The position numbers and the translations under genes were made by a program. DNA of 64,000 nucleotides, from positions 62,001-126,000 of the forward strand of contig NZ_JAYEZO010000002.1 in NCBI RefSeq assembly GCF_037031285.1, given 5' to 3'. Source of the DNA: Halobellus sp. LT62. Lineage in GTDB: Archaea > Halobacteriota > Halobacteria > Halobacteriales > Haloferacaceae. The notes under the pieces are model-generated. The model made no database searches and was not told the DNA's origin. It saw only the letters and a list, made by a program, of their open reading frames with translations. The stretch's first letter is position 1. The number at the start of each line of letters is the position of its first letter. Of this stretch, positions 40,820 to 52,279 are shown piece by piece.

Positions 40820-41305
40820 GTGACGGTCTACGAGAGCGACCTCCCGGGCGTCGGAAAGAAACACGAGATCGATTTACCGGACGGCACACAGCTCGTGGTC
40901 GTCACCCATAACGACGGGCGGCGAGAGGTGTTTCTGCGCGAGACGTCCGACAGCGACTCGGAGAAGCTGTTCGAGCTCCCCGACGACTTGGCGAGACAGA
41001 TCGGGACGATCTTGGAAGGGGCGTACTTTCAGCCGGTCCAATCGCAGAACATCGAGACGCTGCTCGGCGGTGACACGCTCTTAGAGTGGGTCGAGGTCGA
41101 CGCGGACTCACCGATCGTCGGCCAGACGCTCGGCGAGTCTGACCTCCGCGCGGAGACCGGCGCGTCGGTCGTCGCGATCGAACGGGGACAGGACGTGATC
41201 CCGTCGCCCGGTGGCGACACGACGATAGAGGCGGGCGACACGCTCGTCGTCGTCGGTACCCGTGCGAACTGTGCGGACTTCGAATCGCGCGTGACCAGTG
41301 CATAA
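40820..41305 (+). CDS. TrkA-C (RCK_C) domain protein, partner of the antiporter
   Basis: A 161-residue soluble protein. Residues 1-80 hold a small alpha/beta region (TQLVVVTHNDGRREVFLRET) and residues 85-160 a TrkA-C domain (DADSPIVGQTLGESDLRAET, then IEAGDTLVVVGTRANCADFE). Such proteins gate CPA2 antiporters and KefC-like channels in response to nucleotides or ions. The downstream antiporter ATG overlaps its stop by one base, so the two form a two-gene unit. GTG at 40820 chosen; a TATA-like TACTTTTT lies about 27 bp before it. Confidence 0.83.
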   Translation: MTVYESDLPGVGKKHEIDLPDGTQLVVVTHNDGRREVFLRETSDSDSEKLFELPDDLARQIGTILEGAYFQPVQSQNIETLLGGDTLLEWVEVDADSPIVGQTLGESDLRAETGASVVAIERGQDVIPSPGGDTTIEAGDTLVVVGTRANCADFESRVTSA

Positions 41306-42507
41306 TGGCGGCAGGGCTCTTCGAACTCGGACAGGTGTTCGCAGTTCTGGCAATCTCCGGAGCGCTCGCGCTCCGGATCGGCCTGTCGGTCATCCCGCTG
41401 TACGTGGTCGGTGGGATGCTCGCCGGTCCCTTCGTCGCCGGTCGGTTCGGTCTCCCGCACGTGCCCGAAAGCGAGATGCTCACGATCCTCGCGGAGGTCG
41501 GAATCGTCCTCTTGCTGTTCTTTCTGGGACTGGAGTTCAGCCTCGATCGACTGTTGGCCGCACGATCGCGAATCACCCGCGCGGGCGTCGTCGACGCCGC
41601 GATCAACCTCCCGCTCGGGATCGCGCTCGGTCTCGCACTCGGTTGGTCGATCGTCGAGGCGCTGCTGCTCGGCGGGATCGTCTACATCTCCTCGTCGGCG
41701 ATCATCACCAAGACGCTGATCGACCTCGGCTGGATCGCCAACGACGAGGCCGACCCGATCCTCGGGACGCTGGTCTTCGAGGACCTCTTTATTGCAATCT
41801 ATCTCGCGATCGTCGCCTCGCTCGTCCTCGGGGGAACCAGTGCGGGACTCAACGGCCTCGGGCGGTCGCTGGCGATCGCGTTCGGCTTCCTCGGTGCGCT
41901 ACTTTTGGCCGTCCAGTACGGCACGGCGTTCTTCTCTCGCGTCCTCGATGTCGCCGACACCGAGTCGTTCGTTCTCCGGGTACTGGGCGTGGTCGTTCCC
42001 ATCGCCGGATTCGCGCTGTCGATCGGCGTGAGCGAAGCGGTCGCGGCGTTTTTCGTCGGGATGGGCTTTTCGACCAGCGGGCACCGCGAGCGGATCGAAC
42101 GACAGCTCACGTCCGTCCGCGACGTCTTCGCCGCGGTCTTTTTCTTCTGGATCGGCGTCGGCACCGACCCGCGACTCCTCGTCGGCGTCGCCGTCCCGCT
42201 CGCGGCGGCCGTCCTGTTGACGACCCCGGCGAAACTGCTCTCGGGCTACGTCGGGGGTCGCGTCTACGACCTCTCGGAGCACCGTGCGCTCCGGGTCGGC
42301 ATCGGGCTGGTGCCGCGCGGGGAATTCTCGCTCGTCATCGCCGCGCTCGCAGCCGGCGGATCGACGACGGTAATGCAGGAGACGATCCCGGCGCTCGCCG
42401 TCGGCTACGTGCTCGTGATGAGCGTGTTCGGAACGCTGTTGATGCAGCGTTCGGACGCCGTCGAGAGCGTTCTCGCTCGATTTCTCCCCCTCGGTACCGA
42501 CGCCTGA
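41305..42507 (+). CDS. CPA2-family cation/proton antiporter (KefB/GerN-like)
   Basis: A 400-residue membrane antiporter with about 12-13 helices and no C-terminal TrkA domain, that part being supplied by the upstream gene. EVGIVLLLFFLGLEFSLDRL, SSSAIITKTLIDLGWIANDE, LGTLVFEDLFIAIYLAIVAS (acidic pair region) and LVPRGEFSLVIAALAAG are CPA2 signatures. It probably exchanges K+ or Na+ for protons at the cell membrane. The overlap of its ATG with the upstream stop implies coupled translation. Confidence 0.87.
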   Translation: MAAGLFELGQVFAVLAISGALALRIGLSVIPLYVVGGMLAGPFVAGRFGLPHVPESEMLTILAEVGIVLLLFFLGLEFSLDRLLAARSRITRAGVVDAAINLPLGIALGLALGWSIVEALLLGGIVYISSSAIITKTLIDLGWIANDEADPILGTLVFEDLFIAIYLAIVASLVLGGTSAGLNGLGRSLAIAFGFLGALLLAVQYGTAFFSRVLDVADTESFVLRVLGVVVPIAGFALSIGVSEAVAAFFVGMGFSTSGHRERIERQLTSVRDVFAAVFFFWIGVGTDPRLLVGVAVPLAAAVLLTTPAKLLSGYVGGRVYDLSEHRALRVGIGLVPRGEFSLVIAALAAGGSTTVMQETIPALAVGYVLVMSVFGTLLMQRSDAVESVLARFLPLGTDA

Positions 42508-42578
42508 CCACGGCGGGAAGCCCCGACAGAAATTCCGAGTTGTCCCAGATAGAGCGCGTTGACCGACCTCCGCACCGA

Positions 42579-42724
42579 CTACAATTTCAGCACGCTGTGG
42601 ATGTCGTTGCCGCCGAGGAGGTTCGTACGCCTCGTTGACCTTTTCCAGTGTATACTCCTGCGTGATTAGCTCGTCGAGCAGGTAGTCGTCGTCGATCGGC
42701 CGTCCAGCGGCGCTCTGTCTCGAA
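42579..42724 (-). pseudogene. Frameshifted C-terminal fragment of a zinc-type alcohol dehydrogenase
   Basis: On the minus strand, sequence up to 42622 reads GRPIDDDYLLDELITQEYTL then EKVNEAYE; after one extra base at 42621 the reading continues as LLGGNDIHSVLKL and stops at TAG 42581-42579. This is the characteristic C-terminus of medium-chain Zn/NAD alcohol dehydrogenases (D-x-LI-T, then L..VNEAY, then SVLKL). The rest of the gene is absent, so this is a decayed remnant. It starts about 72 bp from the 3' end of the antiporter gene. Confidence 0.7.
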
Positions 42725-42759
42725 AACGTTTAGTACGACGCGTCTGTTTCACACTCCTA

Positions 42760-42891
42760 ATGACGCGTCTCTCTCGGATGCGCACTCGCGCCCCGTCGAG
42801 AGTCGCGACTCCGTTCGCCTCGGCGCTTACTATTCCGATTTCCGCCGAGACGACCGACGCCGCGCGACGACCGCGACGACGGGCCCGTTAG
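42760..42891 (+). CDS. Arginine-rich leader-like ORF upstream of argG
   Basis: ATG at 42760, TAG at 42889-42891, 43 codons, 11 of them arginine; the last eight codons read R-R-P-R-R-R-A-R. It begins MTRLSRMRTRAPSRVATPFA. A TATA-like GTTTAGTA (42728-42735) lies about 28 bp before the ATG, fitting a leaderless transcript. A GC hairpin (42881-42895) straddles the stop codon. The position, just upstream of the arginine operon, suggests an arginine-sensing leader peptide, but such attenuation is not established in haloarchaea, and argG seems to have its own TATA box further down. The peptide could be a chance ORF. Confidence 0.5.
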   Translation: MTRLSRMRTRAPSRVATPFASALTIPISAETTDAARRPRRRAR

Positions 42892-42895
42892 GCCC
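42881..42895 (+). promoter_or_regulatory. Hairpin overlapping the leader ORF stop codon
   Basis: GGGCC (42881-42885), loop CGTTA, GGCCC (42891-42895): a perfect 5-bp GC stem. The TAG stop of the Arg-rich ORF lies in the loop and right arm, so a ribosome finishing or stalled on the Arg codons would prevent folding. No T-run follows, so it is not a standard archaeal terminator. Confidence 0.5.
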
Positions 42896-42991
42896 ACTAT
42901 TACCTCTCCCACTGTCGTATCGAATCAACTCACAAGCGAGTAGCGTCTCTATAGGCATTGCTGCGATTTAATTTCTAAACTTTAAACCGTG

Positions 42992-43000
42992 TATTTTATA
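42992..43000 (+). promoter_or_regulatory. TATA-like box and Shine-Dalgarno of argG
   Basis: TATTTTATA (42992-43000) is about 32 bp before the argG ATG at 43028. A second AT-rich word CTTTAAAC lies at about 42980-42987. GGAG at 43019-43022 is spaced 5 nt from the ATG. The in-frame ATG at 43004 is too close to the TATA box to be on the transcript, which decides for 43028. Confidence 0.55.
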
Positions 43001-43027
43001 CGGATGAGCGTTCGAATCGGAGATATA

Positions 43028-44245
43028 ATGACAAGCGTGGCACTCGCGTTCTCGGGCGGCCTCGACACGACAGTCTGCGTCTCGCTCCTGCAGGAGGAGT
43101 ACGGCTACGACGAAGTCGTCGGCGTCACCGTCGACGTGGGGCAACCCGAATCCGAGTTCGAGGAGGCACAGGAGACCGCCGACGCACACGGTCTCGACCT
43201 GCACGTCGTCGACGCGAAAGACGAGTTCGCGGATCTCTGTTTCGACTCCGTGCGCGCGAACGCGACGTATCAGGGCTACCCGCTCGGCACGGCGCTCGCG
43301 CGCCCGGTCATCGCGAACGCGATCCTCGACGTCGCCGAGGCGGAGGGCTGCGACGCCCTCGCGCACGGTTGCACCGGCAAAGGAAACGATCAGCTCCGCT
43401 TCGAGGTCGTCTGGCGCGCCTCCGACCTCGACGTGATCGCGCCCGTCCGCGAACTGGAACTCACCCGCGAGTGGGAGCAGCAGTACGCCGAGGACAACGA
43501 CCTCCCCGTCCAGTCGGGCAACTCCGGCGTCTGGTCGATCGACACCAACCTCTGGAGCCGCTCGGTCGAGGGCGGACAGCTCGAAGACCCCGGATACGTG
43601 CCCCCCGAGGACATCTACGAGTGGACCGACGACCCCGCGAACGCCACCGAGACAGAGGTAGTGGAAATCGCGTTCGAGGACGGTTACCCCGTCGCGCTCG
43701 ACGGCGAGGAGCTCTCGCCGCCGGAGCTCATCGCGGCGCTGAACGAGCAGGCCGGCAAACACGGCGTCGGCCGCACGGATATGATGGAAGACCGTATGCT
43801 CGGGCTGAAGGTCCGCGAGAACTACGAGCACCCGGCGGCGACGACGCTTCTCACCGCCCACGAGGCGCTCGAACAGCTCGTCCTCACGAAAGACGAGCGC
43901 GACTTCAAGCGCTCGATCGACGCCGAGTGGGCCCAGAAGAGCTACGAGGGCCTCGTCGATCACCCGCTCGTCGGTGCTCTGGAGGGTTTCATCGACGAGA
44001 CGCAGACGCGCGTCACCGGCACGGTGACGATCAAGTTCCAGGGCGGGCAGGCCCGCCCGGTCGCCCGCGATTCGGAGTACGCCGCCTACTCCGAGGACGC
44101 CGCGTCGTTCAACACCTCCGGCGTCGGCGACATCACCCAACAGGACGCGACCGGCGTCGCGAAGTACCACGGGTTCCAGTCGCGCCTCGCGAACGCCGCC
44201 ATCGACGCCGTCGAGGGCGACGCGGACGAAGGCGACTGGGAGTGA
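43028..44245 (+). CDS. argG: Argininosuccinate synthase
   Basis: A 405-residue enzyme joining citrulline and aspartate with ATP. The N-terminal VALAFSGGLDTTVCVSLLQE is the PP-loop (SGGLDT), followed by GCTGKGNDQLRFEV and NSGVWSIDTNLWSRSVEGG typical of the family. It is the first gene of a nine-gene arginine cluster in one direction; argH starts 4 bp later. The start at 43028 is chosen from TATA/SD spacing. An arginine-rich short ORF upstream may be its leader. Confidence 0.96.
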   Translation: MTSVALAFSGGLDTTVCVSLLQEEYGYDEVVGVTVDVGQPESEFEEAQETADAHGLDLHVVDAKDEFADLCFDSVRANATYQGYPLGTALARPVIANAILDVAEAEGCDALAHGCTGKGNDQLRFEVVWRASDLDVIAPVRELELTREWEQQYAEDNDLPVQSGNSGVWSIDTNLWSRSVEGGQLEDPGYVPPEDIYEWTDDPANATETEVVEIAFEDGYPVALDGEELSPPELIAALNEQAGKHGVGRTDMMEDRMLGLKVRENYEHPAATTLLTAHEALEQLVLTKDERDFKRSIDAEWAQKSYEGLVDHPLVGALEGFIDETQTRVTGTVTIKFQGGQARPVARDSEYAAYSEDAASFNTSGVGDITQQDATGVAKYHGFQSRLANAAIDAVEGDADEGDWE

Positions 44246-44248
44246 GCG

Positions 44249-45730
44249 ATGACGGGCGAGGGTGCTGACAACGGGGAAGAACGTTCGAGCGTCGTCCGCC
44301 GCGACCGCTTCAGCGGCGGCCCCGCCCGCGGCTTTATGTCCAGTCTCGCGGCCGACGAGCGCATCTTCGCCGCCGACCTCGCCGTCGACCGCGCGCACGT
44401 GGTGATGCTCGCCGAGCAGGATATCGTCGCTGACGACGTCGCCGGTGAGATTCTCGCCGCGCTCTCCGACGTCGAGTCCGCGGGCCACGGGGCGCTCCCC
44501 GACGGCGAGGACGTCCACGAGGCGATCGAGACGGCCGTCGTCGAGCGCGTCGGCCCCGACGGCGGCAAGATGCACACCGCGCGCAGCCGCAACGACGAGG
44601 TCGCCGCGTGCATCCGCTACCGCCTGCGCGAGGACCTGCTCGACGCGATCGAGGCGACGCTCGCGCTCCGCGAGGCGCTCGTCGAGGTCGCCGCCGAACA
44701 CGTCGACACCGTGATGCCCGGCTACACGCACCTCCAGCCCGCCCAGCCGACGACGGTCGCGCACTTCCTGCTCTCCTACGAGTCGGCGTTCGCCCGCGAC
44801 ACCGCGCGCCTGTTGGACGCCTACGGCCGGGCGAATCAGTCGCCGCTCGGCGCGGCCGCGTTCGCGGGCACGCCGTTCGACATCGACCGCGAACGCACGG
44901 CCGAGTTGCTCGGCTTCGAGGGCGTCGTCGCGAACTCGATGGACGCCTCCGCCGGTCGCGACTTCCTCGCGGAGTCGACGGCGGCGCTGACGACGCACGC
45001 GGCGACGCTCTCGGGCCTCGCGGAAGACCTCGTGATCTTCGCGAACAAGGGCTTCGTCGACCTCGCCGACGAGTACTCCTCGACGTCGTCGATTATGCCG
45101 CAGAAGGTCAATCCCGACACCCTCGAGCTCGTCCGCGCGGTCGCGGGCGACGCCGTCGGCGGCCTCTCCGGACTCCTCACGACGCTGAAAGGACTCCCGC
45201 GCGCGTACAACCGCGACCTCCAGCGCGCGACGCCGCACGCGTGGGAGACCGTCGACGCGGTCTCGGAGGCCACCGCGGTCGTCGCGGGCGCGGTCGCCAC
45301 CGCAGAGTGGCCCGAGGAGGCGCTCGAAGCGGCGGCCGGCGACGGCTTCTCGACGGCGACGGGTGTCGCCGACGCCCTGGCGATGGCGGGCGTGCCGTTC
45401 CGGACGGCCCACGAGGTGCTCGCGGCGGCGGCCGAGCGCGCCGACGGCGAGACGCCCGACCTCGCAACACTTGACGCGGTCGCAGCCGACGTGCTCGGCG
45501 AGTCCCTCTTCGAGTACGTGAGCCGCGAGCGCGTCGAAGCCGCGCTCGATCCCATCGAGAGCGTCGCCAGCCGCGATTCGCTCGGCGGCCCTGCTCCATC
45601 CGCAGTCGCCGCACAACTCGACGACGCCGGCACGGCGCTCGCCGCCGACCGCACGACCTACGACGATCGCACGACCGCGCTCGACGACGCCGCGGAGTCG
45701 CTGGAGGCGGAGGTGGAGGCGTATGCCTGA
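44249..45730 (+). CDS. argH: Argininosuccinate lyase
   Basis: A 493-residue fumarase/aspartase-superfamily enzyme cleaving argininosuccinate to arginine and fumarate. KMHTARSRNDEVAACIRYRL, VMPGYTHLQPAQPTTVAHFL and the superfamily signature SSTSSIMPQKVNPDTLELVR are all present. It lacks any fused acetyltransferase. Starts 4 bp after the argG stop, so both are on one transcript. An Ala/Asp-rich tail of about 30 residues ends the protein. Confidence 0.96.
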   Translation: MTGEGADNGEERSSVVRRDRFSGGPARGFMSSLAADERIFAADLAVDRAHVVMLAEQDIVADDVAGEILAALSDVESAGHGALPDGEDVHEAIETAVVERVGPDGGKMHTARSRNDEVAACIRYRLREDLLDAIEATLALREALVEVAAEHVDTVMPGYTHLQPAQPTTVAHFLLSYESAFARDTARLLDAYGRANQSPLGAAAFAGTPFDIDRERTAELLGFEGVVANSMDASAGRDFLAESTAALTTHAATLSGLAEDLVIFANKGFVDLADEYSSTSSIMPQKVNPDTLELVRAVAGDAVGGLSGLLTTLKGLPRAYNRDLQRATPHAWETVDAVSEATAVVAGAVATAEWPEEALEAAAGDGFSTATGVADALAMAGVPFRTAHEVLAAAAERADGETPDLATLDAVAADVLGESLFEYVSRERVEAALDPIESVASRDSLGGPAPSAVAAQLDDAGTALAADRTTYDDRTTALDDAAESLEAEVEAYA

Positions 45731-45934
45731 GCGTCCACCGGTCCCACCGTCACCACCGCGTCGGCGATCGCGGCCGCGACGGTCCCCTCCCGGGGACATT
45801 CATATATGAAATCAGACATAGATTTCACACGGGCGTATCCTTCGACTGTTCTGCGCCGTTAGTGGTTTCACTGCTCGGGTAATTTATCCGACAACTTCGA
45901 TGGGTTTAAGTCGCTTCCTCGCCCATCGATCGGT
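45731..45934. promoter_or_regulatory. Spacer between argH and lysW with hairpin and promoter
   Basis: A 6-bp stem GTCCCC/GGGGAC with 4-nt loop (45782-45797) lies after argH. TTTAAG (about 45905-45910) is placed 25-30 bp before the lysW ATG and may be its TATA box. An 18-codon ORF (45806-45862), MKSDIDFTRAYPSTVLRR, ends in Arg-Arg-stop; it is weak by itself. Confidence 0.4.
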
Positions 45935-46114
45935 ATGGCAGAGACCATCACCGCAGAAGACCCGCTGACCGGAGAAGAAATCGAGATCCCCGCCGACGTC
46001 GAGGTCGGCGAAATCGTCGACAGCCCCGCGACCGGCGCGGAGCTGGAGGTCGTCTCGGTCGACCCGATCACACTCGAAGAGGCCCCCGAGCTCGAAGAGG
46101 ACTGGGGCGAATAA
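45935..46114 (+). CDS. lysW: LysW/ArgW amino-group carrier protein lacking the zinc cysteines
   Basis: A 59-residue acidic carrier. The C-terminus APELEEDWGE is the diagnostic EDWGE motif, whose terminal Glu gamma-carboxyl is ligated to the amino group of glutamate (or 2-aminoadipate) by ArgX/LysX so that intermediates are processed while bound. VGEIVDSPATGAELEVVSVD aligns with VxCxxCGAELEV of normal LysW, but both cysteines of this pair, and the N-terminal pair, are replaced (there is no Cys in the protein). The fold would have to hold without zinc, maybe through salt-stabilised acidic packing. argX starts 1 bp after its stop. Confidence 0.88.
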   Translation: MAETITAEDPLTGEEIEIPADVEVGEIVDSPATGAELEVVSVDPITLEEAPELEEDWGE

Positions 46115-46115
46115 G

Positions 46116-46988
46116 ATGAAAGTTGGGCTGCTCTACTCCCGGATTCGGAAGGACGAAAAGCTCCTCCTCACGGAGCTCCGCGAGCGCGGCCACGAGGTGG
46201 AGAAGATCGACGTCCGGAAGGAGCAGTTCAACATCGCCGAACCGCCGGAATCGCTCGAGGGGGTCGACCTCGTCGTCGACCGCTGTCTGGCGACGAGTCG
46301 GAGCCTCTACACGACGCAGTTTTTGGACGCGTACGACATCCCGGTCGTCAACGGTGCCGAAACCGCCGACATTTGTGCCGACAAGGTGAAAAACAGCCTC
46401 GCGCTCGAACGCGCGGGCGTGCCGACGCCGAACACGGAGGTCGCCTACACCGTCGACTCCGCGATGGAGACCATCGAGGAGTTCGGCTACCCCTGCGTGA
46501 TCAAGCCCGTCGTGGGCTCGTGGGGTCGCCTGATGGCGAAAGTCGAATCGCCGTCGGCCGCCGAGGCCATCCTCGAACACAAGGCGACGCTCGGCCACTA
46601 CCAGCACAAGGTGTTCTACGTGCAGGAGTTCGTCGAGAAGCCCGGCCGCGACATCCGCGTGCTGGCCGTCGACGGCGATCCGGTCGCCGCGATGACGCGC
46701 TCGTCGGACCACTGGCTCACCAACGCCGCGAAGGGCGGCAAAGTGGCCGAGTTCGACCTCGACGACCGCGCCCGCGAGCTCGTCGAAGCCGCCTCCGACG
46801 CCGTCGGCGGCGGGCTGCTCGGCGTCGACCTGATGGAGACTGGTTCCGATTACACGGTCCACGAAGTAAACCACACCGTCGAGTTCAAGGCGCTGAACGA
46901 CGCGGTCGACGTCGACGTTCCCGCGACGGTCGTCGACTGGCTCGAATCGAAAGCCGAACAAGCCACCGGGACGGAAACAGCCGTATGA
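46116..46988 (+). CDS. argX: Glutamate-LysW ligase (ArgX/LysX)
   Basis: A 290-residue ATP-grasp ligase of the RimK/LysX family that attaches glutamate to the C-terminal Glu of LysW. MKVGLLYSRIRKDEKLLLTE, PCVIKPVVGSWGRLMAKVES (ATP-grasp glycine loop), FYVQEFVEKPGRDIRVLAVD and YTVHEVNHTVEFKALND (metal-binding) are family features. Presence inside an arginine operon with argG, argH and argF points to glutamate (ArgX role); use in lysine synthesis is less likely here since haloarchaea generally make lysine by another route and lysC is separate. Confidence 0.9.
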   Translation: MKVGLLYSRIRKDEKLLLTELRERGHEVEKIDVRKEQFNIAEPPESLEGVDLVVDRCLATSRSLYTTQFLDAYDIPVVNGAETADICADKVKNSLALERAGVPTPNTEVAYTVDSAMETIEEFGYPCVIKPVVGSWGRLMAKVESPSAAEAILEHKATLGHYQHKVFYVQEFVEKPGRDIRVLAVDGDPVAAMTRSSDHWLTNAAKGGKVAEFDLDDRARELVEAASDAVGGGLLGVDLMETGSDYTVHEVNHTVEFKALNDAVDVDVPATVVDWLESKAEQATGTETAV

Positions 46989-48061
46989 GTGGTGACGATT
47001 CACACGCGGACGCCGGGGACGACGCGGCCTACACCGCCGCCGTCGTCGGCGGCTCCGGATTCACCGGCGGCGAGCTCCTGCGCCTGCTGTATCAGCATCC
47101 CGAGTTCGACGTCGTGCAGGCGACGAGCAGATCGAAGGAGCGCAAGACCGTCGGCCACGTCCACCCGAACCTCCGCGAGATGGACCTCCGTTTCACCTCG
47201 CCGGAGGAACTCGAATCCGTCGACGCGCTCTTCGCGGCGACGCCGCACGGCGTCTCGATGGAGCACATCGACGAGTTTCAAGACGCTGCCGACACCGTCG
47301 TCGACCTCTCGGCGGACTTCCGCCTCGATACGGAGGAGCAGTACGACGAGTGGTACGACGGGCACGTCTGTCCCGAATACCTCGAAAAGTCGGAGTACGC
47401 CCTGCCCGAGATCAACCGCGAAAACCTCCCGGGGGCCGAACTCATCGCCTCCGGCGGCTGCAACGCCACCGCGACGATCCTCGGGCTGAAGCCGCTGTTC
47501 GACGCCGGCATTCTGGAGGGCGACGAGCAGGCCGTCGTCGACGTGAAGGTCGGTTCCTCGGAAGGCGGTGCGGGCGGCGGCGATGCCTCCAGCCACCCCG
47601 AGCGCTCGGGTATCGTGCGCCCGTACGCGCCGACCGGCCACCGCCACGAGGCCGAGATCGAGCAGTTCCTCGGGCTCTCGGTCTCGTTCACCGTTCACGC
47701 CGTGGATATGATCCGCGGTGCGAGCGCGACCTGTCACCTCTTCCCGAGCGCGCCCGTCTCGAAGGGTGACCTCTGGAAGGCCTACCGCGACGCCTACGCC
47801 GACGAGCCGTTTATGCGGACCGTCGCCGGCGGTGGCGGCGTCTACCGCTACCCCGAGCCGAAGGCCGTCGCCGGGACCAACTTCGGCGAAGTCGGCTTCG
47901 AGATCGACCCCGGAAATAGAAGACTGGTCGTCTTCTCGGCGATCGACAATATGATGAAAGGCTCGGCCGGACAGGCCGTCCACGCCGCGAACATCGCGCT
48001 CGGCATCGAGGAGACGGCTGGCTTGGAGTTCACGGGACTCCACCCCGTCGGCGCGCCCTGA
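46985..48061 (+). CDS. argC: LysW-gamma-glutamyl phosphate reductase (ArgC/LysY)
   Basis: A 358-residue NADPH-dependent reductase of the N-acetyl-gamma-glutamyl-phosphate reductase family. AAVVGGSGFTGGELLRLLYQ is the nucleotide fold start, and ASGGCNATATILGLKPLFD holds the catalytic cysteine. Later HRHEAEIEQFLGLSVSFTVH carries the conserved His. The N-terminus adds about 15 Asp-rich residues. ATGA overlap with argX indicates coupled translation. In this pathway the substrate is phosphorylated glutamate carried by LysW. Confidence 0.93.
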   Translation: MSGDDSHADAGDDAAYTAAVVGGSGFTGGELLRLLYQHPEFDVVQATSRSKERKTVGHVHPNLREMDLRFTSPEELESVDALFAATPHGVSMEHIDEFQDAADTVVDLSADFRLDTEEQYDEWYDGHVCPEYLEKSEYALPEINRENLPGAELIASGGCNATATILGLKPLFDAGILEGDEQAVVDVKVGSSEGGAGGGDASSHPERSGIVRPYAPTGHRHEAEIEQFLGLSVSFTVHAVDMIRGASATCHLFPSAPVSKGDLWKAYRDAYADEPFMRTVAGGGGVYRYPEPKAVAGTNFGEVGFEIDPGNRRLVVFSAIDNMMKGSAGQAVHAANIALGIEETAGLEFTGLHPVGAP

Positions 48062-48096
48062 CGACAATCGACTTACACGTACCACGACGTACACGT

Positions 48097-49092
48097 ATGA
48101 CCACCGAACCCACCACACACGACGATTCACGCGACGCCCGCCAGACGCAGCAGTTCGGACCCGAGGCGGCGCGACCGCTTCGCACCGACGGCGGCAGCGA
48201 GGAGTCGCTCCCGCCGGTCGTCGTGAAGGTCGGCGGCGCTCGCGCGGTCGACCCAGCGGGCGCGGTCGAGGACGTCGCCGAACTCGTCGAGCAGGGGAGG
48301 GAAGTCGTCGTCGTTCACGGCGGCTCGACCGCCGTCGACGACACGCTCGAAGAACTGGGCGAGGAGCCGACGTACGTCGAGACGCCCGGCGGCGTCGTCG
48401 GTCGCTTCACCGACGAACGTACGATGGAGGTGTTCTCGATGGTGATGCCCGGCAAGCTCAACACCGACCTCACGGTCACGCTCCGCGCTGCCGGTGTGGA
48501 CGCGCTCGGCCTCTCCGGCGTCGACGGCGGCCTCCTGACCGGCCCGCGCAAGTCGGCCGTTCGGGTCGTCGAGGACGGGAAAAAGAAAATCAAGCGCGGC
48601 GACCACTCCGGGAAGATCACGGGCGTCAACGGCGCGCTGCTGGAGACGCTGCTCGGCGACGGCTACACGCCGGTCGTCACCGTGCCGATGCTGGCCGACG
48701 ACGGCGTCGCGGTCAACGCCGACGCCGACCGCGCGGCGGCGGCCGTCGCCGGCGCGCTCGGCGCTGAACTGGTGGTCCTCACCGACGTTTCCGGCGTCTA
48801 CGCCGACCCCGACGACGCGTCGACGCTGATCGAATCGGTCGCGACTCCCGCGGAATTTGATACACTGACGGACGCCGCGGAGGGCTTTATGACGAAGAAA
48901 GTGATGGCGGCGAAGGAGGCGCTCGACGGCGGCGCGGTGACCGTCATCGTCGCCGACGCGAACGCCGACGACCCCATCATCGCGGCGCTTGACGGCGGCG
49001 GCACGCACATCCACGCCAGCGCGGTCGCCGATCCCGACGAGGGGACTGACGCCGAGGACAGTGACGCCGAGGAGACGGAGGTGACACAATGA
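48097..49092 (+). CDS. argB: LysW-glutamate kinase (ArgB/LysZ)
   Basis: A 331-residue amino-acid-kinase-family enzyme phosphorylating the gamma-carboxyl of LysW-bound glutamate. After about 40 disordered N-terminal residues, VVVKVGGARAVDPAGAVEDV starts the kinase domain; VVVVHGGSTAVDDTLEELGE binds the amino-acid side, and LVVLTDVSGVYADPDDASTL is the nucleotide site. A long acidic tail ends it. The argD ATG overlaps its stop by 4 bp. Confidence 0.92.
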   Translation: MTTEPTTHDDSRDARQTQQFGPEAARPLRTDGGSEESLPPVVVKVGGARAVDPAGAVEDVAELVEQGREVVVVHGGSTAVDDTLEELGEEPTYVETPGGVVGRFTDERTMEVFSMVMPGKLNTDLTVTLRAAGVDALGLSGVDGGLLTGPRKSAVRVVEDGKKKIKRGDHSGKITGVNGALLETLLGDGYTPVVTVPMLADDGVAVNADADRAAAAVAGALGAELVVLTDVSGVYADPDDASTLIESVATPAEFDTLTDAAEGFMTKKVMAAKEALDGGAVTVIVADANADDPIIAALDGGGTHIHASAVADPDEGTDAEDSDAEETEVTQ

Positions 49093-50228
49093 GCGGCGGC
49101 TTCGTCTTCTCCGAGAAACCGATTCAGATCGAGTCCGGCGACGGTGCGTACCTGTACGACACGAAGGGAACCGAGTACCTCGATTTCGGGGCCTCCTACG
49201 CCGTCACGCCGCTCGGACACTCGCATCCGGCCGTCACCGAGGCGATTCAGGAACAGGCCGAGACGCTGACCTACGTGCAGGCGTCGTACCCCGTCGAGGT
49301 CCGCACCGAACTGTACGAGAAGCTCGCGGCGCTCGCGCCCGGCGACATCGAGAACGTCTGGCTGTGTAACTCCGGGACCGAGGCCAACGAGGCGGCGATG
49401 AAGTTCGCCCGCGCGGCCACCGGCCGCTCGAAGATCGTCGCGACCAAGCGCGGCTTCCACGGTCGCACGATGGGCGCGCTCGCGATGACGTGGAAGGACA
49501 AGTACAAGAAGCCGTTCGAGCCGCTGGCCGGCGGCGTCGAGTTCGTCCCCTACGGCGACGGAGAAGCGCTCGCCGAAGCCGTCGACGACGAGACCGCGGC
49601 GTTCTTTGTAGAGCCCGTACAGGGAGAAGGCGGCATCCACCCCGCCACGACCGAGTACCTCCAGCACGCACGCGAGGTGACTGACGAAGCGGGCGCGGCG
49701 CTCGTCTTCGACGAGATCCAGACCGGCGTCGGACGCACCGGCAACCTCTGGGCCTGCGAGGGCGTCGGCGTCGAGCCCGACATCCTCACGTCGGCGAAGG
49801 GGATCGCGAACGGCCTGCCGCTCGGTGCGACCCTCGTGAAAGACTGGATCGCGGATAATCCCGGCGACCACGGGTCGACCTTTTCGGGGGGTCCCGTCGT
49901 CTGCGCCGCGGCGAACGCCACGCTCGATACGATCGTCGACGAGGACGTTCCCGCGCACGCCGCACACGTCGGCGAGTACCTGCGGAGCGAACTGGAGGCG
50001 GCTGCGGAGACCCACGACCTGCCCGTCCGCGAGGTGCGCGGTTCGGGGCTGATGATCGGTATTCAGATCAAGCGCGGCGCGAACCGCGTGCTGAAGAACC
50101 TCGCGCTCTCCGAGCAGGTGCTCGCGCTCCCGGCGGGTCGGACGGTCGTCCGCCTGCTCCCGCCGCTGACCATCGACGAGAGCCACGCCGACCAGTTCGT
50201 CGAGTCGTTCGCGGAGGTGCTGGGATGA
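49089..50228 (+). CDS. argD: LysW-ornithine/acetylornithine aminotransferase (ArgD/LysJ)
   Basis: A 379-residue class III PLP aminotransferase. YLDFGASYAVTPLGHSHPAV, LCNSGTEANEAAMKFARAAT, LVFDEIQTGVGRTGNLWACE and TSAKGIANGLPLGATLV (PLP lysine in AKG) are typical of ArgD. It transfers an amino group from glutamate to LysW-bound glutamate-semialdehyde. Overlaps both neighbours by 4 bp, so it is in the middle of a tightly coupled run argB-argD-argE. Confidence 0.94.
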   Translation: MSGGFVFSEKPIQIESGDGAYLYDTKGTEYLDFGASYAVTPLGHSHPAVTEAIQEQAETLTYVQASYPVEVRTELYEKLAALAPGDIENVWLCNSGTEANEAAMKFARAATGRSKIVATKRGFHGRTMGALAMTWKDKYKKPFEPLAGGVEFVPYGDGEALAEAVDDETAAFFVEPVQGEGGIHPATTEYLQHAREVTDEAGAALVFDEIQTGVGRTGNLWACEGVGVEPDILTSAKGIANGLPLGATLVKDWIADNPGDHGSTFSGGPVVCAAANATLDTIVDEDVPAHAAHVGEYLRSELEAAAETHDLPVREVRGSGLMIGIQIKRGANRVLKNLALSEQVLALPAGRTVVRLLPPLTIDESHADQFVESFAEVLG

Positions 50229-51373
50229 GCGCCGAACTCGACGACGAGGAGGTCGCCGACGGCGAGTCGGTCTCGGCGACCGAGGGAAACGCCGTCGGCT
50301 TCGGGATGAACCACGGCGTCTTCGACGTACAAGAGAATCTCACCGAGGGGCTGACCGAGGCGCAGACGCTCTTGGCGGATCTCGTCTCGATTCCCTCGCC
50401 GTCCGGCGAGGAGACCGCGGCCGCAGAACGCCTGAAGGCGTTCTTCGAGGCGCACGACCGCGAAGTGTGGATCGACGACGTCGGCAACGTCCGCGCGCCC
50501 GCCGACGACTCGGTGCTTCTCACTTCCCACATCGACACCGTCCCCGGCGACGTGCCGGTGAAGATCGAGAACGGCGTGCTCTGGGGTCGCGGGAGCGTCG
50601 ACGCCACGGGACCGCTCGCGTCGATGGCCGTCGCGGCCGTCGAGACGGGCGTCTCCTTCGTCGGCGTCGTCGGCGAGGAGACCAGTTCTCGCGGCTCGTG
50701 GCACCTCGTCGAAGACCGCGACGCGCCCGAGGCCGTCATCAACGGCGAGCCCTCCGGATGGGACGGAATTACGCTCGGCTACCGCGGCTTCCTCTCGGGG
50801 ACGTACGTCTCGACGAGTGAGTTGGGTCACTCCTCGCGTCCCGAGGACAACGCGATCCAGTCGGCCGTCAACTGGTGGTCGAGCGTCGCGGACTTCTTCG
50901 ACGAGGACGAGTCCGACGGCGTCTTCGACACCGTGACGACGAAGCCGGTCCGCTTCGACGGCGGGCCCACCGAGGACGGCCTCGCGGTCGAGGCGACCGT
51001 CGACGTGCAGTTCCGCGTCCCGCCGAAGTTCACCATCGACGACATCCGCGAGGTCGCGGAGGGTGAACTCACCCGCGGCGGCGTCCACTGGGAGAAGCCG
51101 ATCCCGCCGGTGATGACGAGCCCGCGCACCGAGGTCGCCCGCGCGTTCCGCGTCGCGATCCGGCAGGCCGGCGGGGAGCCGCGCTTGCTCAGAAAGACCG
51201 GCACCAGCGATATGAACATCTTCGCCGGCGCGTGGGACTGTCCGATGGCGACCTACGGCCCCGGCGATTCGGATCTGGACCACGCGCCGAACGAACACCT
51301 CGACCTCGCGGAGTACGACAGCGCGATCGACGTGCTCGTCGACGTCTGCGAGCGCCTTCAGAAGCAGGAGTGA
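50225..51373 (+). CDS. argE: LysW-ornithine hydrolase (ArgE/LysK)
   Basis: A 382-residue zinc-dependent M20-type deacylase releasing ornithine from LysW. Motifs: SIPSPSGEETAAAERLKAFF, VLLTSHIDTVPGDVPVKIEN (metal His in SHIDT), GVVGEETSSRGSWHL (catalytic Glu pair) and KTGTSDMNIFAGAWDCPMAT near the end. The KTGTSDMN stretch is characteristic of LysK-type enzymes. The N-terminus has about 35 acidic residues that include a DEEVADGES-like run. Stop is 6 bp before argF. Confidence 0.93.
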   Translation: MSAELDDEEVADGESVSATEGNAVGFGMNHGVFDVQENLTEGLTEAQTLLADLVSIPSPSGEETAAAERLKAFFEAHDREVWIDDVGNVRAPADDSVLLTSHIDTVPGDVPVKIENGVLWGRGSVDATGPLASMAVAAVETGVSFVGVVGEETSSRGSWHLVEDRDAPEAVINGEPSGWDGITLGYRGFLSGTYVSTSELGHSSRPEDNAIQSAVNWWSSVADFFDEDESDGVFDTVTTKPVRFDGGPTEDGLAVEATVDVQFRVPPKFTIDDIREVAEGELTRGGVHWEKPIPPVMTSPRTEVARAFRVAIRQAGGEPRLLRKTGTSDMNIFAGAWDCPMATYGPGDSDLDHAPNEHLDLAEYDSAIDVLVDVCERLQKQE

Positions 51374-51379
51374 GACAGG

Positions 51380-52279
51380 ATGCTCGAAACCGACCACTTC
51401 CTCGACATCGACGACCTGACGACCGACGAACTGCAGACCGTCCTCGACCGCGCGTCGGCGATCAAAGCCGGCGAGGACGACACGCGATTGCCCGATCAGA
51501 CGCTCGGGATGCTCTTCGAGAAGCCGAGCACCCGAACGCGGATCTCCTTCGAGACCGGGATGACTCAGCTCGGCGGGCACGCCATCTTCCTCGGTCCCGA
51601 GGACATCCAGCTCGGCCACGGCGAGCCGCTGTCTGACACCTCTCGCGTGCTCTCCCGGTACGTCGACGCCGTGATGGCGCGGCTGTTCGACCACGAGGAC
51701 CTGATCGAAATCGCCGAGTACGCCGACGTTCCAATCGTCAACGGCCTCACCGACGACGCGCACCCGTGTCAGACGCTCGCCGACCTGCTCACGATCAAGG
51801 AGGCCTTCGGCGGCTTCGACGACGTGCGGGTCGCGTGGGTCGGCGACGGCAACAACGTCGGCCAGTCGCTCGTGATCGGCGCGGCGATGGTCGGGCTGGA
51901 TCTGACGATCTCGACGCCGGAGACGTACGGAATGGCCGACGCGGTGCTCGAACAGGCCGCCGAATTGGGCCACGAGCCGACCGTCGTCGAGGACCCGAAA
52001 GACGCCGTCGACGACGCCGACGTCGTCTACACCGACGTCTGGATCTCGATGGGGCAGGAGGACCAGCGCCACGAGAAGCTCGCGGCCTTCGACGGGTATC
52101 AGGTGAATAAGCGGCTGCTCGCCGACTCCGACGCGCAGGTGATGCACTGTCTGCCCGCCCACCGCGGCGAGGAGATCACCGGCGACGTCTTAGAGTCCGA
52201 GCGCTCGCTCGTGTGGGACCAAGCGGAGAACCGCCTGCACGCCCAGAAGGGGCTGCTCGTCGAACTGCTCGACGCCTGA
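51380..52279 (+). CDS. argF: Ornithine carbamoyltransferase
   Basis: A 299-residue transcarbamylase converting ornithine and carbamoyl phosphate to citrulline. FEKPSTRTRISFETGMTQLG (carbamoyl phosphate loop STRT), LTDDAHPCQTLADLLTIKEA (HPCQ), DVWISMGQEDQRHEK and MHCLPAHRGEEIT (HCLP) all match. It closes the nine-gene cluster and supplies citrulline to ArgG. Confidence 0.97.
   Translation: MLETDHFLDIDDLTTDELQTVLDRASAIKAGEDDTRLPDQTLGMLFEKPSTRTRISFETGMTQLGGHAIFLGPEDIQLGHGEPLSDTSRVLSRYVDAVMARLFDHEDLIEIAEYADVPIVNGLTDDAHPCQTLADLLTIKEAFGGFDDVRVAWVGDGNNVGQSLVIGAAMVGLDLTISTPETYGMADAVLEQAAELGHEPTVVEDPKDAVDDADVVYTDVWISMGQEDQRHEKLAAFDGYQVNKRLLADSDAQVMHCLPAHRGEEITGDVLESERSLVWDQAENRLHAQKGLLVELLDA

Follow-up and report, generated by a model that had tools for sequence, protein, structure and literature searches.

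The arginine operon of Halobellus sp. LT62 is preceded by a 43-codon ORF whose stop codon lies inside a hairpin. The preliminary description of this locus had recognised the layout of an amino-acid-sensing leader peptide. We asked whether the ORF has such a function, or whether it is one of the Arg-rich frames that are common by chance in this GC-rich DNA. The window, that is, the whole stretch of 64,000 nucleotides that was analysed and to which all positions refer, was compared with the upstream regions of argG from other haloarchaea. From these comparisons, we consider it likely that the element is an arginine-sensing leader peptide gene, which would control the downstream arginine operon in cis via the position of the ribosome.

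Leader ORF, hairpin and promoters upstream of argG

The following features were located on the window.

42721..42735, + strand: P1, the BRE/TATA element of the leader ORF (CGAAAACGTTTAGTA), recognised by sequence; its spacing fits a leaderless transcript
42760..42891, + strand: Arg leader ORF, 43 codons from ATG to TAG; homologous leader ORFs lie before argG in most haloarchaea
42865..42882, + strand: terminal Arg run CGA CGA CCG CGA CGA CGG (RRPRRR), rich in the rare codon CGA
42881..42895, + strand: hairpin around the stop codon, GGGCC-CGTTA-GGCCC
42896..42913, + strand: G-free unstructured tract of 18 nt, directly 3' of the hairpin and mostly unpaired in folding
42966..42975, + strand: T-tract ATTTAATTTC, like the Haloferax intergenic termination motif (T stretch plus TC); putative function
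42984..43003, + strand: P2, the BRE/TATA region of argG (AAACCGTGTATTTTATACGG); argG is near-leaderless, and such a box is missing in 15 of 87 loci
43028..44245, + strand: argG, argininosuccinate synthase (NCBIfam), the first gene of the arg operon
44249..52279, + strand: rest of the arginine operon, with argH, the lysW/argW carrier and lysX/argX (NCBIfam), and argC, argB, argD, argE and argF (ORF translations and gene order)

The leader ORF at 42760-42891 translates as MTRLSRMRTRAPSRVATPFASALTIPISAETTDAARRPRRRAR. Eleven of its 43 codons are for Arg, six of them among the last eight, exactly as had been described before. The hairpin consists of the arms GGGCC (42881-42885) and GGCCC (42891-42895) with the loop CGTTA, and the TAG (42889-42891) starts in the loop and ends on the first base of the 3' arm, which bears out the earlier report of a 5-bp GC hairpin holding the stop codon. 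The TATA-like sequence TTTAGTA (42729-42735) is located 25-31 bp ahead of the leader ATG, and the argG start at 43028 lies 136 bp past the stop; both agree with the earlier figures of about 28 bp and about 130 bp, respectively. Homology to the congeners in blastn begins at 42718, that is, at P1.

The genes downstream of the leader are the haloarchaeal arginine operon, and the same arginine gene set is given for Haloferax (PMC8305020). The gene upstream of the leader (41305-42507) encodes a sodium/hydrogen exchanger-type antiporter (PF00999). Just upstream of P1, on the minus strand at 42587-42700, we observed a frameshifted remnant resembling the C-terminus of an alcohol/glucose dehydrogenase (containing DDYLLDELITQEYTLEKVNEAYE, and LLGGNDIHSVLKL before a stop). 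This remnant gave a weak Pfam match (PF16912, E 0.02), and similar DNA is present elsewhere in two congeners.

Among 91 aligned leaders, the sequence CGAAA/GGAAG together with TTTAATA was found at about -38 to -27 of the ATG. Judged by sequence, this is the promoter spacing of leaderless transcripts, which account for 72% of the protein-coding transcripts of Haloferax (PMC4983044). The region before argG has two layouts. A TATA box is present just before argG in 72 of 87 loci, 53 of which also have a T-tract upstream of the box. As the argG promoter is downstream of the hairpin in these 72 loci, readthrough from P1 cannot be the sole supply of argG mRNA there. The remaining 15 loci have neither the TATA box nor the T-tract, and the element is kept in them. 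With no TATA box for argG, the leader in these loci is probably part of the argG 5' UTR and shares the argG transcript. That argG has its own TATA-like box had been raised as an argument against a leader; the box is present in this genome, but its absence from 15 of 87 loci weakens the argument. Near the argG start, A and C strongly predominate in the 5' UTR of the TATA-less lineages (L076, L079, L081, L152, L158, L065, L203, L207 and others), for example GACAGACACACCACACGAG.

Conservation of the element in Halobacteria

We collected 121 haloarchaeal argG upstream regions, found via ArgG in whole genomes and named contigs, and searched them with a strict detector. It called for a perfect stem of at least 5 bp with a loop of 3-8 nt, an in-frame stop in the loop or the 3' arm, at least 3 Arg among the last 8 codons, and a location 60-230 nt upstream; these thresholds were chosen by us. 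The detector was positive in 87 of the 121 argG loci, all from one order of archaea and not phylogenetically independent. Control searches gave 5/121 on the antisense strand, 2/121 further upstream and 3/363 in dinucleotide shuffles. Several loci with an element clear by eye were missed (e.g. L023, L026, L029). A short ORF with an Arg run at its end was seen in nearly all of the 121 regions, and in most Halobacteria sampled the Arg ORF with its stop in a hairpin is located 70-220 nt upstream of argG; examples of leader tails, each followed by the stop, are MATRSTFATFAPLRAAAVRPRRRAL (Haloferax marisrubri), MTRTSRSTMLAADSEGSLRFSPRRRRPGRF (Haloarcula amylolytica) and MEGTRPTDARTLASAASLLLRRRVRRPGL (Halogranum amylolyticum). 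As a non-circular test, we anchored the search on the Arg-rich ORF alone, blind to the hairpin, and then determined the stem length at its stop. Among the 97 loci so anchored, 82 had a stem of at least 5 bp at the stop, compared to 5.8% with shuffled flanks.

The order has 16 families with argG, and the Arg run, the hairpin and the in-frame stop were present together in 13 of them; this recurrence supports the earlier reading of the layout as a leader peptide. The element was missing from the two small-genome assemblies of family f2, from f9 and f11, whose ArgG is more distant, and from those outgroups of the methanogen lineage that were examined. Degenerate argG leaders were seen in L190 (G101), L184, L197, L201 and L072 (Halonotius-like), where the Arg-rich stretch is kept and the stop and hairpin are displaced or missing.

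Whether the Arg codons or the open frame are lost in close relatives was a check proposed in the preliminary description. They are not: in eight congeners the frame is exactly 43 codons without indels, and the Arg run is kept while the rest drifts. Divergence among these congeners affects ∼27% of positions in codons 2-34 and ∼10% in the last 9 codons, which is about 3 times less, and dN/dS over the leader ORF is ∼1.06. The frame, the run and the hairpin are thus kept while the peptide drifts, as expected of a leader peptide but not of a small protein. The leader peptide matches no small-protein family in Pfam or NCBIfam, and no Rfam family matched the window at 42500-43100 with E up to 1.

An Arg-rich tail in GC-rich DNA is not special by itself. 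At least 4 Arg in a last-8 window were also found in 9/30 trpC and 6/30 leuA-like upstream regions, and it is the combination, position and conservation that count. We searched 2.04 Mb (63%) of this genome on both strands for short ATG ORFs with the stop inside a hairpin of at least 5 bp and no more than one G in the 14 nt that follow. This pattern occurred 19 times, and only the match at the argG locus has such an Arg run. Chance is excluded by this genome-wide count together with the detector controls and the hairpin-blind stem test. A crude scan of the same 2.04 Mb for run-bearing ORFs gave noise only, and the gene caller that was used missed the argG leader too. Elsewhere in this genome, at C1:320671, the stop of the ORF MTRGRFIRG is enclosed by TCGGGG-GTAA-CCCCGA, and an HMGL/leuA-like gene (C1:320717) has its Pfam match 46 nt downstream; the ORF has no Leu run and is probably due to chance.

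The choice of codons in the Arg run is also biased. CGA makes up 64% of the Arg codons in the last 8 leader codons and 22% in the rest of the leader. For comparison, its share is 8% in nine genes of the window and 3% in argG of 12 named haloarchaea, where CGC accounts for 70% of the Arg codons. Of 87 leaders, 70-72 have Arg at each of the positions -4, -5 and -7, and Arg reaches 41% in frame 0 compared to 17 and 12% in the other two frames. Biased regulatory codons are expected for sensitive attenuators, both from theory and from bacterial examples (PMC1183508). The CGA bias points to charged tRNA-Arg being sensed by codon reading. The reader of CGA, tRNA-Arg(UCG), was not among the 34 tRNAs in the scanned 63% of the genome.

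The stem sequence varies by lineage with the pairing and the in-frame stop kept, so that the stem covaries: GGGCC/GGCCC, GGCCC/GGGCC, CGGGC/GCCCG, GGGGC/GCCCC, GGGGTC/GACCCC and GACCCC/GGGGTC were all found. This covariation cannot be seen in an ungapped alignment of 46 stop-anchored segments, since the distance of the 5' arm from the stop varies by 1-3 nt. Where the stop in the loop has been lost (L056, L071, L022 and L026), the frame runs on to the next stop, immediately past the hairpin. In predicted folding, the hairpin forms alone with a mean pair probability of 0.92 and a median of -9.6 kcal/mol. We found no rival pairing of its 5' arm (mean 0.02) and no antiterminator structure, and in the consensus folding of the lineages without an argG TATA box the hairpin was the sole conserved helix.

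The content of G after the hairpin in the 87 loci was 2, 1 and 5% in successive 6-nt bins and ∼17-30% in the next 30 nt. The absence of a T-run after the hairpin had also been held against a leader. It is true that no U-run terminator directly follows the hairpin, but an 18-nt G-free A/C/U tract is found there instead, and some lineages have a T-tract ∼75-85 nt beyond the hairpin region, so that this argument too is weakened. Intergenic termination sites of Haloferax have a T-stretch-plus-TC motif, with a hairpin at most 10 nt upstream in 503 of 1,543 (PMC7237163).

Proposed attenuation and rival readings

From the conserved ORF with its promoter, the CGA bias, the stop within the hairpin, the covarying stem, the G-free tract and the drifting peptide, we infer that the leader is translated, that ribosomes stall on it and that termination is the output; the direction of the response is assumed from the biology. 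In the model, P1 would give a leaderless mRNA starting at or near the leader ATG, and a ribosome translating the leader would meet the run of mostly CGA codons just before the stop. When charged tRNA-Arg is ample, the ribosome would pass the run, terminate at the stop and depart. The hairpin, with the last codons as its 5' arm and the stop in its loop and 3' arm, could then close and leave the G-free tract bare. This state would favour the end of the transcript, probably via the termination nuclease aCPSF1/FttA acting at the tract or at the later T-tract. When charged tRNA-Arg is short, the ribosome would wait on CGA and cover the 5' arm and loop; no hairpin would form, and transcription would run into argG.

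As there is one hairpin without a rival structure, the ribosome itself is the simplest switch, and a termination factor might land on or cleave the RNA at the bare G-free tract. The ribosome and FttA have been proposed to compete for RNA polymerase (PMC11616081). The sensor part of this attenuator appears well supported by the comparisons, and the output is probably factor-dependent transcription termination. Attenuation is further suggested by the lineages that keep the element without an argG TATA box, and by a Phe-run leader, apparently independent, that the same haloarchaea have ahead of pheS. Against it stand the argG promoter downstream of the hairpin in most lineages, the lack of a T-run directly after the hairpin and of an antiterminator partner, which sets the element apart from bacterial trp-type attenuators, and the point that a ribosome held at one of the early Arg codons would mask the hairpin but leave the G-free tract exposed.

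The main rival to a termination output is a translational one, in which the arginine-sensing uORF and its hairpin gate the access or re-initiation of ribosomes at argG on the same mRNA, with no premature termination. The G-free tract could be of use not only to a termination factor but also to ribosomal subunits moving along the mRNA, and the TATA-less lineages (15/87) have an A/C-rich unstructured stretch of 50-220 nt from the leader stop to argG. In most lineages, however, argG has its own leaderless-spaced promoter, so the leader cannot affect the translation of that mRNA, and the element is equally conserved there; the argG start is also not visibly sequestered. We therefore regard a translational output as unlikely. 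Another reading, which we regard as quite improbable, is an arrest peptide: with abundant arginine, ribosomes would be halted at the stop codon by the nascent peptide in the tunnel instead of by the codons, as happens with the fungal arginine attenuator peptide. Such an arrest peptide would be consistent with the basic C-terminal tail being kept (RRPRRRAx or RRPGL before the stop) and with the stop being always in or beside the hairpin. The peptide, though, varies freely except for Arg/Pro, its residues -1 and -2 are dictated by the hairpin sequence, and selection at the codon level (CGA 64%) would be needless for an arrest peptide. No conserved arrest-peptide sequence was found, as the peptide outside the Arg run drifts with dN/dS ∼1.

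Strong local conservation upstream of argG across families would also be expected of a binding site, in RNA or DNA, for a regulatory protein that overlaps the short ORF by accident, with translation being irrelevant; the LEU element of Actinobacteria offers a precedent (PMC1262725). This is very improbable in view of the in-frame stop that follows the hairpin, the excess of Arg in frame 0, and the promoter of the ORF with the ATG at leaderless spacing. A fixed DNA operator was rejected, since the stems swap sequence between lineages and leave no fixed operator word. Finally, Arg-rich ORF tails being so common in this DNA, the ORF could be a chance occurrence, or it could be the gene of a small basic protein with a function of its own, located beside argG. 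We hold this to be extremely improbable. Chance is excluded as described above, and the small protein was rejected, as dN/dS is ∼1, the peptide drifts with no conserved residues outside the run, and no family is matched.

Phe-run ORFs before pheS and relation to known leader peptides

A 26-aa uORF before pheS is present in a table of H. volcanii uORFs (PMC4983044). In many Halobacteria checked (L343-L367), we found a short ORF ending in a Phe run 90-240 nt before pheS. Its tail is MRHGPDFPARGVDTQSTDIDGSVFFFRID before the stop in this genome (L361; pheS locus G000:C2:7642-8469, minus strand) and MAPESHVRASLETQPQRRRSGFGFFFAR or MPYEPRLGGIDGQPRRRHSDAGFDFFFAA before the stop elsewhere; endings of these ORFs include SVFFFRID and GFGFFFAR. 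At least 3 Phe in a last-8 window occurred in 14/30 pheS upstream regions, compared to 0/30 for both leuA-like genes and trpC. In the genus of the window, a GGGTCC immediately ahead of the run could base-pair with a GGACCC that follows the stop, but unlike at the Arg leader no G-free tract follows. Judged by sequence, this ORF is a probable Phe leader peptide, separate from the Arg leader. No cognate-run leaders were found before trpC, trpS, tyrS, trpE (where the flanks may not reach the operon start) or leuA-like genes; such runs are thus not a general trait of GC-rich upstream DNA.

The Arg element resembles the bacterial attenuators trpL, hisL, leuL and pheL/pheM, in which a short ORF before a biosynthetic operon carries a run of end-product codons just before its stop, synonymous codons are biased and formation of a hairpin depends on the ribosome; as in pheL/pheM, a Phe-run leader lies before a PheRS gene too. 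It differs in being archaeal, in having its own leaderless-spaced promoter, to which another is often added ahead of the first structural gene, and in having its stop inside a single hairpin with no antiterminator/terminator pair and no U-run right after the hairpin. Four features tested against the trp/his/leu type were found: a leader ORF before the operon of the same amino acid, a conserved cognate run with the rest drifting, a biased codon and a hairpin that a ribosome could block. Two were absent, namely a mutually exclusive antiterminator and a U-run directly after the hairpin. The element would thus appear to work in the manner of bacterial leader-peptide attenuators, but in a domain of life that is new for them.

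The Rho-dependent tnaC leader of E. coli is similar in that its stop lies beside a bare C-rich, G-poor stretch able to load a termination factor unless it is blocked by a ribosome located at the ORF end. On tnaC, ribosomes stall at the stop in high Trp and the catabolic operon is turned on, whereas the opposite response is expected for the Arg leader. To our knowledge archaea have no Rho, and the candidate factor for the Arg leader is aCPSF1/FttA. The fungal arginine attenuator peptide uORF (CPA1/arg-2) is likewise arginine-responsive and precedes an arginine-synthesis gene. It is an arrest peptide without an Arg run, while the haloarchaeal leader keeps its Arg codons and has a drifting peptide.

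Cognate codons in a run, close to a conserved RNA structure, also precede a biosynthetic gene in the actinobacterial LEU element. Its pseudoknot pairs with the leuA Shine-Dalgarno sequence, and the Leu codons were reported not to matter (PMC1262725); that mutations in the Leu run of such a similar-looking leader had no effect counts against attenuation. Unlike the LEU element, the Arg leader has no Shine-Dalgarno pairing. Short ORFs before haloarchaeal genes, sometimes with a second TSS for the main gene, are known from long 5' UTRs of H. volcanii (PMC4983044, Table 2). That table does not include argG, and the ORFs given in it all have a low pI and were not interpreted as amino-acid sensors.

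Leader-peptide systems were placed in Proteobacteria and Actinobacteria, with Firmicutes added, in a 2010 survey (PMC2965389), and a 2021 paper stated that no archaeal example of ribosome-read amino-acid leader control was known. In searches confined to open-access full texts, we found no report of amino-acid leader peptides in archaea. We put at about even the chance that haloarchaea have their own class of amino-acid-sensing leaders (Arg/argG and Phe/pheS), which would be the first ribosome-mediated attenuation known in Archaea, and that in the Arg version a single stop-containing hairpin and a G-free tract for aCPSF1/FttA-dependent termination replace the terminator/antiterminator pair. If this is true, attenuation read by the ribosome extends to the second prokaryotic domain, where it would rest on archaeal transcription and leaderless translation. 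This would also imply a working coupling of transcription and translation in haloarchaea, and would offer a ready in vivo test system for regulated termination dependent on aCPSF1/FttA.
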